From a virus, in the IMG/VR virus record IMGVR_UViG_3300034418_003902, positions 1 to 29,755 of that record: a stretch of DNA of 29,755 nucleotides. One strand, 5' to 3'. The position numbers were made by a program, and so were the translations under genes. Of this stretch, positions 4,212 through 6,957 are shown in pieces. Under the pieces are notes generated by a model, which saw only the letters and a program-made list of their open reading frames with translations, ran no database searches and was not told where the DNA came from. Each line of letters begins with the position of its first letter. Positions within the stretch are counted from its first letter, which is position 1.

Positions 4212-4628
4212 CTAGAACGGTGTCGGCTCTTGTGAAGCCCACGGGTCATCTTGCTGCTTTGCCGCAACGGTGCTGCGTTCTACTCGCTGCATATTAACTG
4301 TTGTCCACTTAAGGTCGGCTGCGATGTGATCTGCCGCCACCTCCCAAACGGTTCTCTTGTTACCTTCCTTATCATCGTACTGTCGTGATTTTACTTTACC
4401 GACGACAACAACCGCGTCACCTTTTTGGATCGAGTTTGCTACATTCTCAGCCATTTGTCGCCAGGCGCTCACCGTCCAGAAAGTTGTATCAACATCGACC
4501 CAACCGTCATCAGTTTTCTTCCGACCGCTTGTGACCACTCGCAGATTTAACACGGCGTCACCTTTCGCAGTGAAGCGGAGCTCCGGATCTGCGGTGAGCC
4601 TGCCGGTCAGGGTTACTGGTGCACTCAT
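4212..4628 (-). CDS. ssb: Single-stranded DNA-binding protein
   Basis: 138 residues. OB-fold of the bacterial SSB family: VTLTGRLTADPELRFTAKGD, LRVVTSG, DTTFWTVSAWRQMAENVANS, KGDAVVVVGKVKSR, then VAADHIAADL. The C-terminal tail is short and ends in WASQEPTPF, a variant of the acidic DDIPF-type tip that recruits partner proteins. A GGGAGAAAACAG ribosome site precedes the ATG. It coats single-stranded DNA during replication and annealing and sits in the same operon as a Rad52-like annealing protein and nucleases. Firm call. Confidence 0.93.
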   Translation of the reverse strand: MSAPVTLTGRLTADPELRFTAKGDAVLNLRVVTSGRKKTDDGWVDVDTTFWTVSAWRQMAENVANSIQKGDAVVVVGKVKSRQYDDKEGNKRTVWEVAADHIAADLKWTTVNMQRVERSTVAAKQQDDPWASQEPTPF

Positions 4629-4864
4629 CTGTTTTCTCCCTTTCGTTTCGCTCTGTTAATCTGTGAGGCATAATGACCGCCCCAGATACCGTACATTTCA
4701 TTATTGTCGCGTGCGTAGGCATAACATTCGGCGCGGACTTCACATCTTTGACAGACTGATACGGCCATTCGATATACCTCGATATTCTCCATCTGGTACT
4801 CGGGAAAGAATATGTCTGCGCCGACTTCGCGGCAGCGGGCTTGTTCTCGCCAATCTTCTGTCAC
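4625..4864 (-). CDS. WhiB-family transcriptional regulator
   Basis: 79 residues, GTG start overlapping the upstream stop (GTGA), and ATGA overlap with ssb downstream. Motifs of the actinobacteria-specific WhiB/Wbl family are complete: an N-terminal Cys (QARC), the CQRCEVRAEC triple giving the four ligands of a 4Fe-4S cluster, and GIWGG followed by a basic tail (RAKRKGENR). WhiB proteins bind the primary sigma factor and steer transcription. Phage copies can shut down or redirect host promoters. This is the best single marker that the host is an actinobacterium. Confidence 0.92.
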   Translation of the reverse strand: MTEDWREQARCREVGADIFFPEYQMENIEVYRMAVSVCQRCEVRAECYAYARDNNEMYGIWGGHYASQINRAKRKGENR

Positions 4865-5193
4865 TGGTAACCCGCGTCCTTAAGTAACTGTGCAGCATTC
4901 TTAAAAGTCAAGAGTGCTGGCCATTCTTCGATAGTGGTCGGTCCGTAACCGTCTGGCCTTATGACTGCTAAACCTAACACGCCATCGGCGGCACGTAAAG
5001 ACTGCTGCCGTAGTGTACCGGTCAAATCCAAACCGCGCCGTGCTTTAACTTCGATATCAACACCAACAACACCAGTCACATCTGAACCTGGTCGACCAGC
5101 ACCAACCGGCTCGGCGAAAGGCCAACCAACAGTTCGCAGATAGTTGGCGACTATTCGCTGCGTGTCGTATCCTCGCTGCTTACGGCTTGACAT
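4861..5193 (-). CDS. PD-(D/E)XK nuclease / Holliday-junction-resolvase-like
   Basis: 110 residues from the ATG at 5193, which follows a GGGAG ribosome site; a longer upstream extension lacks a start signal and overlaps the HNH gene. The motif GRPGSDVTGVVGVDIEVKAR supplies the D, E and K of a PD-(D/E)XK active site (D-x(n)-ExK), with a preceding helix (QRGYDTQRIVANYLR) as in archaeal-type and phage resolvases. It probably resolves branched DNA before packaging. It overlaps HNH by 14 bases and WhiB by 4. Confidence 0.7.
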   Translation of the reverse strand: MSSRKQRGYDTQRIVANYLRTVGWPFAEPVGAGRPGSDVTGVVGVDIEVKARRGLDLTGTLRQQSLRAADGVLGLAVIRPDGYGPTTIEEWPALLTFKNAAQLLKDAGYQ

Positions 5194-5458
5194 CTCGCTC
5201 CCAACTATGTTTCGACCAGCCTTCGGCGTGCGCCGTTGCTGGGTTCTGTGTAATAAAAGAATGACAACTACGACAAAGCGCAACAAGGTTTTCTGGATCA
5301 AGGATCGAGCCGCCTCGTGCGCGGCTTACAATCTCGTGTATATCTTCGCTGCGATGTGAACCGCACCGCATGCAAATCGGGTATTCCTCGAGGAGCTCCG
5401 CTACAAGAATACGGCGCCTCTTGTAAAGGTCTTGCATTTTTTTGCTTCTAGGCTTCAT
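5180..5458 (-). CDS. HNH endonuclease
   Basis: 92 residues. CMRCG...DIHEIVSRARGGS...NLVALCRSCH is a compact HNH core with two structural CxxC pairs. The first His is in IHE, the Asn in NLVAL and the last His after CRSC. ATG start with GGAG eight bases upstream and an ATGA overlap with the methyltransferase stop. HNH proteins beside methyltransferases can be restriction, homing or recombination nucleases; sequence alone does not decide. Confidence 0.82.
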   Translation of the reverse strand: MKPRSKKMQDLYKRRRILVAELLEEYPICMRCGSHRSEDIHEIVSRARGGSILDPENLVALCRSCHSFITQNPATAHAEGWSKHSWERDVKP

Positions 5459-6399
5459 AGAGTCTCCAAGTATGACAGAGCCAATCTGGCTTGCTGTGGC
5501 ACCACACCGTTACCCAATAGTTGTAGTTTCTTGCGGTCTCGCAAATCAATGTCTGTCACCCAACCGTCCGGTAAGCCCATCATCCATTCGACAAACCTCG
5601 TGTTAAGTTTCTTGCCTGCGCCTTCTAAAACAACTGGAGACGGTGCTGATCGACCGAGTATTTGCTCCCATCGTTTGACGGCTTCGGCGTATTCTCCCCA
5701 ACTTTCAGCGCCTCTTGCCAAAGGCTGCGACCGTGCGGCGAAGGTTCGCCGGTCGATGACTTCTGCCTCTGTGCCCATTCTTCCCAATCTTTCGGATCTT
5801 TTGTCGCCCCCATGTCGTTTACAACTTGAGTCGGCAGCAGTTTCTGTGAATAAACTAAATCCTGCAAGGTTTCGCCTGTATGATGTTGGCTGTCCGGGTG
5901 TCGACCGCTGGTTGCATTGCGGCCTTGCTGCACCGTCGGGGTAGGCAACTGCGAATAACCTGGCACGCAGGTGAGGGGCACCTGCATCACTGGCTCGTAC
6001 AACACACCATCTTGCAACATACCCACTTCTGGCAAGGTCAGATAGGACAATGTCAAAGCCCAGAGAGAGGTGTCCTCTGACGTTCTCCAACACTGCTGCT
6101 CTTGGTCGTATTGTGCGAATGGCGTCCAAGAAATACGGCCACATGTTTCGGTCATCGGTAGCTCCTTTTCGTTCACCGGCGTGGCTAAAAGGCTGGCATG
6201 GGTAACCGCCGGTTAAAACATCGACGGGCTCGACACTTGCCCAGTCCACTTGTGAAACATCTCCGTGATTCATTTTGTTCGCGTATCGCAACTGTAAGAC
6301 TGTTTTAGCCGCTGGATCTGTCTCGCAATACCACGCAACATCACCGTCAATAGCCATATCCAAGCCACCGTAACCGGTGAACAGGCTTCCTATCTTCAC
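5455..6399 (-). CDS. dcm: C5-cytosine DNA methyltransferase
   Basis: 314 residues from a GTG that overlaps the upstream stop (GTGA); the open frame extends further but into the preceding gene. All main C5-methyltransferase motifs are present: I (SLFTGYGGLD), IV with catalytic Cys 68 (GGYPCQPFS), VI (ENVRG), VIII (APHLRARLF), IX-like (RFVEWMMGLPDGW) and X (LLGNGVVPQQA). Residues about 152-250 are variable and should contain the target-recognition part. It methylates cytosine at an unknown DNA site, either to evade host restriction or to prime cytosines for further modification with the glycosyltransferase. A second long ORF with its own ribosome site lies inside it in another frame. Confidence 0.92.
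   Translation of the reverse strand: MKIGSLFTGYGGLDMAIDGDVAWYCETDPAAKTVLQLRYANKMNHGDVSQVDWASVEPVDVLTGGYPCQPFSHAGERKGATDDRNMWPYFLDAIRTIRPRAAVLENVRGHLSLGFDIVLSDLARSGYVARWCVVRASDAGAPHLRARLFAVAYPDGAARPQCNQRSTPGQPTSYRRNLAGFSLFTETAADSSCKRHGGDKRSERLGRMGTEAEVIDRRTFAARSQPLARGAESWGEYAEAVKRWEQILGRSAPSPVVLEGAGKKLNTRFVEWMMGLPDGWVTDIDLRDRKKLQLLGNGVVPQQARLALSYLETL
5625..6155 (-). CDS. Overlapping ORF nested inside the methyltransferase gene
   Basis: 176 codons in a different minus-strand frame, wholly inside dcm (about codons 82-258). It starts at an ATG preceded by AAAAGGAG with seven bases between, one of the better ribosome sites in the window. The translation reads like a real protein: CGRISWTPFAQYD, CWRTSEDTSLW, a LPEVGML...DGVLYE block, LPTPTVQQG, then LLPTQVVNDMGATKDPKDW and an HGRSL segment. 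As I recall, actinophage cytosine methyltransferases or ORFs overlapping them carry similar WRTS / GM / LPTP / VVNDMG blocks. Function unknown; it may be a partner of the methyltransferase or a target-recognition relic. No promoter of its own is seen. Confidence 0.6.
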   Translation of the reverse strand: MTETCGRISWTPFAQYDQEQQCWRTSEDTSLWALTLSYLTLPEVGMLQDGVLYEPVMQVPLTCVPGYSQLPTPTVQQGRNATSGRHPDSQHHTGETLQDLVYSQKLLPTQVVNDMGATKDPKDWEEWAQRQKSSTGEPSPHGRSLWQEALKVGENTPKPSNDGSKYSVDQHRLQLF

Positions 6400-6749
6400 G
6401 TGTATTGACCGACGCCTTCGGCCGCAAACTGGTGACGCAACGCCGCGCTCACCGTCTGACCCGTGCTGATCTGGTTTCGCAAAGTATTCATGCGCTCTTT
6501 GCATGCTCTGTGCTTCGCGTAAGCCAACTCATACTCCAGGCGCTCCGACGCGCTCATTAACGTCGCCTTATGCTTGCGCATCTCCATTGACCCTTCAGCC
6601 TTAATAAAGGCTTCCGCGTACTTCACCTCAAATGCTTGCTTCGCCACCACGGCTTGCTCATCTAGGCGTGCAATCTCATCTGTGGCGGTGTCCAACATGC
6701 GCGATACCTCGGCGAGTCTTTTAATGACTCGTGTCTGTTCAGCATGCAT
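6396..6749 (-). CDS. Coiled-coil protein of recombination cluster
   Basis: 117 residues from the ATG at 6749, which has GAGG six bases upstream; the frame runs further but overlaps the small zinc gene. Strongly helical with heptad-like segments (IKRLAEVSRMLDTATDEIARLDEQ and the YELAYAKHRACKERMNTLRNQIS region). The block YAEAFIKAEGSMEMRKHKA and the C-terminal SAALRHQFAAEGVG resemble actinophage proteins usually found beside RecT/Rad52-type annealing genes. Likely a structural accessory in recombination; no catalytic motif. Confidence 0.7.
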   Translation of the reverse strand: MHAEQTRVIKRLAEVSRMLDTATDEIARLDEQAVVAKQAFEVKYAEAFIKAEGSMEMRKHKATLMSASERLEYELAYAKHRACKERMNTLRNQISTGQTVSAALRHQFAAEGVGQYT

Positions 6750-6957
6750 AACGCGCCTCGTGTGGCGTTCTGCAGTTTTCGATAAACCATGCGCCGCACT
6801 GACTACATCTTGTGATGCTCTCCAATAACCGCTTACGTGTCCATCGTGTTTTCGGCGGCTGTAAGTCTCGCGGATTATCTGGCGGGCGCGGCTGCGTCCT
6901 GCGCAGGTATCGCTGTTTTGCATGCCATGACATTCGCTCCCAGTCCTGTGGGCGCAT
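6739..6957 (-). CDS. Small zinc-ribbon protein
   Basis: 72 residues, basic N-terminal half (HAKQRYLRRTQPRPPDNPR, then TRWTRKRLLE) and a C-terminal CSQC...C...C set that could hold one zinc. AGGAG precedes the ATG by about eight bases; the start overlaps the upstream stop (TAATG), and the end overlaps the coiled-coil gene by 11 bases. Probably nucleic-acid binding; no family recognised. Confidence 0.6.
   Translation of the reverse strand: MRPQDWERMSWHAKQRYLRRTQPRPPDNPRDLQPPKTRWTRKRLLESITRCSQCGAWFIENCRTPHEARYAC

Follow-up and report, generated by a model that had tools for sequence, protein, structure and literature searches.

C5-cytosine methyltransferases have their target-recognition domain (TRD) in the interval that separates motif VIII from motif IX. 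In the multispecific phage enzymes (those of the B. subtilis phages SPbeta, phi3T and SPR, and M.BssHII), serial recognition modules of about 40 amino acids are found between these two motifs. Another unusual arrangement is that of M.EcoHK31I, whose beta subunit is read from another frame inside the gene for its alpha subunit. Here we describe a C5-cytosine methyltransferase gene (dcm, called frame A below) with a nested 176-codon open reading frame (ORF; frame B) on the minus strand of IMG/VR virus contig IMGVR_UViG_3300034418_003902, whose entire 29,755 bases constitute the window of this analysis. From sequence comparisons, we consider it likely that B acts as the specificity (beta) subunit of a phage C5-methyltransferase made of two polypeptides, bringing recognition cassettes that A lacks.

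Both M.AquI and M.EcoHK31I are two-chain C5-methyltransferases (PMC3404938). The larger polypeptide of M.EcoHK31I has motifs I-VIII and X and the smaller has only motif IX, and its predicted TRD was placed in alpha (PMC3404938). By motif layout the window fits neither two-chain type, because M.EcoHK31I has motif IX in beta and M.AquI has motifs IX-X in beta, whereas the window has both IX and X in A. A further difference from M.AquI is that B shares 176 codons of overlap with A and bears an array of cassettes; relative to the multispecific enzymes, the window modules are in frame B and not in line with motif IX. An additional precedent is the ShiLan insertion, a mobile HNH gene hidden in an actinophage methylase gene (PMC11855218). 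As with B, an out-of-frame protein is encoded within an actinophage methylase gene whose own frame stays open, but B lacks an HNH match and is no insertion. Overlapping-frame and multispecific phage methyltransferases are already known. However, the literature searched contained no description of the nested frame of this family, nor of an enzyme that combines a complete alpha frame with a beta nested inside it that bears the cassettes, with exchange of modules between the frames and with constraint on frame B across the alpha variable region.

The nested frame and its relatives

Frame A has the PF00145 domain, the PCQ and ENV motifs and motifs IX and X, as is typical of a C5-cytosine methyltransferase. 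It is taken here from a GTG shared with its homologs (Table 1); if read from an upstream ATG, the ORF spans 5455..6504. The original prediction, made from the DNA letters, was of an ORF of 176 minus-strand codons at 5625-6155, wholly within dcm and crossing its motifs VI and VIII. The ORF is located exactly there, in frame +1 of A. Its overlap with A opens immediately downstream of motif IV (PCQ), takes in motif VIII (GAPHLRARLF) as well as the variable region, and ends before motif IX. All the translation blocks quoted at that time are found in B. The predicted ribosome site is also present (AAAAGGAG, at 6169..6162), with a spacer of 6 nucleotides rather than the seven given. The likeness to phage C5-methyltransferases that it suggested is borne out by PHROG_1008 ('DNA methyltransferase'), which matches B at 1.1e-8 through profile positions 61-176. 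Positions 223-317 of the same profile match the C-terminal part of A (motifs IX-X). Because this one profile covers both regions, they form one joined protein in other phages.

A tblastn search with B yielded 28 actinophage records, some annotated with two overlapping methylase genes, and scans of viral and prokaryote genome contigs with a profile built from A yielded 160 further loci. The A profile was needed to find these relatives, as the B alignment is too variable for scanning, and searching viral contigs with the single B and A proteins gave no relative or one. Hosts of the relatives include Actinomycetota, Bacteroidota, Bacillota, Verrucomicrobiota and Myxococcota. The collection was drawn from the highest-ranking entries, by similarity, of one subfamily (that with a GAPH-type motif VIII), and its layout counts are therefore not prevalence figures. 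In every A gene with a match to the B model (170 of 170), B occupies frame +1 of A, starts after motif IV and overlaps the motif IV-VIII stretch. Four A genes lack such a match, among which three have a similar-looking open +1 frame and one is a frameshifted record.

Three layouts can be distinguished. In layout T1 (86 loci, including the window), A is complete and B is nested. In T2 (42 loci), A has motifs I-VIII and B has IX-X, which matches the layout of M.AquI. In T3 (16 strict loci; 29 with near cases, the set used in the tree described below), motif IX is in B and X is in A, which is the motif layout of M.EcoHK31I. Such EcoHK31I-like layouts occur in Bacillota and Bacteroidota (e.g., L171, L143 and L169).

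These layouts bear on the idea that the methylase gene hides a mobile endonuclease in another frame, as in ShiLan, and that B is this endonuclease. Genes of this kind are known in actinophage methylases (PMC11855218), and an HNH gene adjoins the methyltransferase in the window. However, B has no match in Pfam, HNH included, it spans conserved motifs V-VIII of A rather than being inserted, and its relatives are continuous with motif IX. This explanation is contradicted by the evidence, and we give it virtually no credence.

Some B relatives are already annotated (Babsiella gp55, Samy gene 50 and Sebastisaurus gene 35), where they are called DNA methyltransferase or domain protein. Neither dual coding nor the cassette array is described in these records or in that of PHROG_1008. 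In the annotation of Rhodococcus phage ReT1v-2 (L005:1248-2402), the nested B is a hypothetical protein and the full-length A appears only as a C-terminal scrap. In another viral contig (L013:1608-3427), two C5-methyltransferase genes stand in tandem, and a separate B is nested in each of them.

Evidence for selection on frame B

An ORF nested in a conserved gene might be a shadow of the conserved amino acids and codon bias of that gene. In 20,000 shuffles that permuted synonymous codons while fixing the amino acids of A, the +1 frame of the window was open over 177 codons in a fraction of just 0.0002, with 5.2 stops expected; the real +2 frame of A has 7 stops. We also scored B with a hidden Markov model (HMM) of the B N-terminal region built only from T2 loci, and thus from loci other than the window. 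Window B scored 59.4 bits, whereas 200 shuffles averaged 31.2 and reached at most 53.1, and the T1 B regions had a median of 71.9 bits (shuffles, 31.8). In 75 of the 86 T1 loci, none of 200 shuffles reached the score of the real B. A start codon with a Shine-Dalgarno (SD) sequence for B is present in 70 of 85 T1 loci, whereas 28.4 were expected. Almost all homologs keep the B frame without stops, which had been proposed as a check on the nested ORF.

The converse experiment permuted the synonymous codons of B in the cassette region. Frame A of the window was open in 0 of 400 such shuffles, with 4.83 stops expected, and across 67 T1 loci the median probability of A staying open was 0.083. In T2 loci, where A ends early, stops in the A frame number 7.64 against 7.69 expected. 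Stop avoidance in both A and B indicates that both frames are kept open in T1.

Codon-position rates reveal which frame carries the information in each part of the overlap. Differences at positions 1/2/3 of A codons were computed for T1 loci whose A has no cassettes (T1b), in 28 independent pairs. The stretches that encode only A, upstream (.174/.129/.379) and downstream (.179/.147/.388) of B, have the normal pattern of A coding. Where B overlaps motifs V-VIII (.183/.108/.324), A is dominant and wobble change is reduced. In the cassette overlap (.327/.190/.220), the fastest change is at A position 1, which is the wobble position of B. T2 stretches that encode only B give.413/.166/.138, and T3 cassette regions give.314/.176/.227. 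After motif VIII, then, B is under more constraint than A, which is mainly required to stay open. Likewise, the A variable region in window-type relatives is under little constraint beyond openness. Constraint confined to the dcm frame, the outcome that would have spoken against dual coding, is not what these rates show. For T3 loci, the B frame is under the greater constraint in the cassette region, which suggests that beta holds the recognition region in these loci as well; the published assignment for M.EcoHK31I is to alpha.

The proposal that B is merely a shadow draws some support from shuffles that preserve A, whose median score with the B model is still about 32 bits, indicating that some of the apparent conservation is shadow, and from the high chance openness of some GC-rich loci. 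Yet the real B exceeds all shuffles in most T1 loci and in the window, and a B-frame wobble signature is seen downstream of motif VIII. Moreover, a shadow cannot yield cassettes that are seen in frame A elsewhere, and T2 proteins hold B and motifs IX-X in one frame. This explanation is refuted for the family, and we regard it as extremely improbable overall. Judged by homolog conservation, two-frame stop avoidance, conservation of start and ribosome site, and codon-position rates, B is a genuine protein-coding sequence that is conserved and constrained, as the original prediction of a dual-coded partner had it. By this coding evidence, the window appears to encode a second polypeptide in another frame within its alpha gene.

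Cassettes and their movement between frames

Beyond residue 69, B is a series of units that open with LPTP or a similar string. We counted 462 such cassettes, with a median length of 39.5 amino acids and 1-8 per locus. Window B has two such 'LPTP' cassettes, roughly 30-45 residues long, and both match cassettes elsewhere. Among relatives, cassettes are found in B or, in the case of A, in the interval from motif VIII to motif IX, and 49 of the 54 A-frame units have a B-frame homolog elsewhere. For example, the kin of window cassette 2 in L045 is in frame A between these motifs (BLASTP, 1e-9). In relatives, the cassettes resemble the modules of the multispecific methyltransferases in size, position and modularity. 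In contrast to those enzymes, the array here is mostly on a second, overlapping polypeptide, and either frame is possible.

Cassettes were clustered by average linkage, as single linkage had merged most units. At the threshold used, both window cassettes are singletons, and their kinship is seen via two family HMMs (Table 1), whose scores are not blind because members were picked by patterns resembling the window cassettes. Comparisons of close relatives reveal differences by whole units. Locus L122 has cassette types 5,4,0,2 and L124 has 5,8,4,0,2; L048 has 33,26 and L049 has 17,33,26; and L113 has 3,9,15 where L114 has 3,9,7. Cassettes thus appear to be gained, lost or swapped between close relatives.

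The movement of modules also involves motifs IX-X. On a quick tree of A catalytic regions, the T1, T2 and T3 layouts change at least 13 times, with six changes of T2 forced by well-supported branches. The phages Babsiella (L003, T1) and Ovechkin (L011, T2) have identical A catalytic proteins, but a different frame holds the later cassettes and motifs IX-X, and one cassette is exchanged. The ability of motifs IX-X to sit on either chain is most easily explained by the assembly of two chains. C5-methyltransferases that are split naturally or artificially are known to assemble (PMC3404938). Programmed frameshifting to a fused product is not favored, because B has its own start and SD sequence; by eye, there is no obvious slippery site at the B-to-A junction.

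In the window, cassette 2 ends at 5703 and the IX-X segment of A begins at 5700, within one codon, and so the frame switch is on a module border. This exact placement, together with the frequent interconversion of T1 and T2, might be taken to mean that the window holds a decayed or frameshifted two-subunit gene, or a sequencing error, in which a one-base indel moved IX-X from B to A and left B as a remnant. However, the same layout is present in 86 loci with stop avoidance in two frames, which argues that T1 is a stable functional state, and A of the window is open against 4.8 expected stops. We therefore find decay or error very unlikely.

A proposed specificity subunit

In the enzyme that we propose, beta would be translated independently from its own ribosome site within the alpha gene. 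Alpha would supply catalysis (motifs I-VIII) and, here, motifs IX-X. The two polypeptides would assemble, perhaps with the N-terminal region of beta docking on the catalytic domain, and the beta cassettes would serve as the TRD in trans. Each cassette might recognize one DNA target, which would give the window enzyme up to two. Phage DNA methylated in this manner could evade host restriction. The A protein of some T1 loci has just 45 residues between motifs VIII and IX, a stretch that could scarcely accommodate its own recognition domain. Each window cassette also has a G-x-(T/S)-L string (GETL and GRSL), which recalls the conserved Thr-Leu of known recognition domains and serves as a lead only. 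The B tail, in comparison, is probably of no consequence.

The original prediction had offered a target-specificity or an anti-restriction subunit. Specificity is the better suggestion of the two, because B cassettes occupy the TRD position in relatives, which points to a role in recognition. For a separate anti-restriction activity there is no support other than the protection expected of every phage methyltransferase.

Several observations weigh against a recognition subunit or temper the evidence for it. A sign test of the cassette result across all 28 pairs gives 18:8 (P=0.076), although the pooled rates are clear and the exceptions are mostly among the most divergent pairs. The nearest relatives of the window have only about 52-53% of A in common with it, rising to at most 64% when the catalytic region is considered, and no close relatives of the window phage were found among those collected; the codon test is therefore strong for the family rather than for the window alone. 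The cassette families are small, and the pattern G.{0,3}[TSN]L, present in 41% of units versus 18.5% when shuffled, is a moderate signal. A PDB sequence search with the B profile gave nothing up to E=1, and an AlphaFold2 model of B alone is of low confidence (predicted local distance difference test [pLDDT] score, 65.6; predicted template modeling score, 0.31). For L045 A, which has an in-line cassette, the modeled catalytic parts are confident and HhaI-like (1fjx, Z 25.0, root mean square deviation 3.6, 244 aligned), but the cassette scores about 40-59 and has no resolved fold. Finally, a fifth exception among the A genes is L104, in which stops interrupt B and the cassettes sit in A; this locus may have lost its second subunit.

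Given these points, B might be translated and conserved without being a recognition subunit, acting instead as a chaperone, stabilizer or regulator of alpha, or as a DNA-mimic or anti-restriction protein. Consistent with this are the presence of all motifs I-X in A of the window, with motif IX missing from B, and the lack of a confident fold or Pfam match for B alone. We nevertheless consider such roles unlikely, as B is continuous with motif IX in T2 and T3, and hence is part of the small domain of the enzyme, as its cassettes are found at the TRD position in A elsewhere, and as A's own region there is little constrained.

Genomic context

The coordinates of the methyltransferase features and neighboring genes are given in Table 1. 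Downstream of the methyltransferase are genes for an HNH endonuclease, whose ATG overlaps the methyltransferase stop by 4 nucleotides, a WhiB-like regulator and SSB. This neighborhood suggests that the window is from a phage of an actinobacterium.

Table 1. Features of the dcm locus and adjacent genes (window coordinates)
Feature	Position	Strand	Basis or remark
Frame A (dcm), C5-cytosine methyltransferase, motifs I-X, 314 amino acids from homologous GTG	5455..6399	minus	PF00145, 2.5e-35; alignment
A catalytic motifs I-VIII	5938..6399	minus	Alignment; HMM
A variable (TRD-position) region, read over B cassettes	5701..5937	minus	Codon-position rates; A-frame openness
A motifs IX-X segment (WGEYAEAV...GNGVVPQQ)	5458..5700	minus	HMM; PHROG_1008 positions 223-317
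Frame B, nested ORF, 176 amino acids, ATG start, TAG stop	5625..6155 (6155..5625)	minus	Frame +1 of A; proposed beta subunit
SD-like AAAAGGAG	6162..6169	minus	6-nucleotide spacer to B ATG
B N-terminal conserved region, residues 1-69, over A motifs V-VIII	5949..6155	minus	HMM built from T2 loci
B cassette 1, residues 70-101, RNAT...HHxGxTL type	5853..5948	minus	Family HMM 37.8 bits, best shuffle 2.2
B cassette 2, residues 107-151, VVNDMGA...HGxSL type	5703..5837	minus	Family HMM 49.8 bits, best shuffle 6.1; BLASTP 1e-9 to L045 frame A
B tail, residues 152-176, read over A motif IX-X segment	5628..5702	minus	Position only
175-codon ORF directly upstream, overlapping methyltransferase start	6399-6923	minus	No Pfam match
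HNH endonuclease gene	5183-5458	minus	PF01844, 4.6e-8
WhiB-like regulator	4628-4864	minus	6e-17
SSB	4215-4628	minus	9.7e-28

Implications

On balance, we lean toward the broader proposal that the window belongs to a widespread phage and prophage family whose recognition code is in a second frame of the catalytic gene itself, with a combinatorial, swappable cassette array on a nested beta, the corresponding region of alpha reduced to a nearly meaningless open linker, and modules that hop between frames. If this is true, many phage and prophage 'DNA methylase' genes would encode two-subunit enzymes whose specificity subunit is missing from annotation, and the annotated gene expressed alone would therefore fail or mislead. 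The family would also be an example of unusually deep and wide same-strand dual coding with modules traded between frames, in which the overlap divides into a part that constrains both proteins and a part where one is a mere linker. The cassettes would then be directly testable DNA-recognition units, apparently exchanged by phages, probably in response to host restriction.
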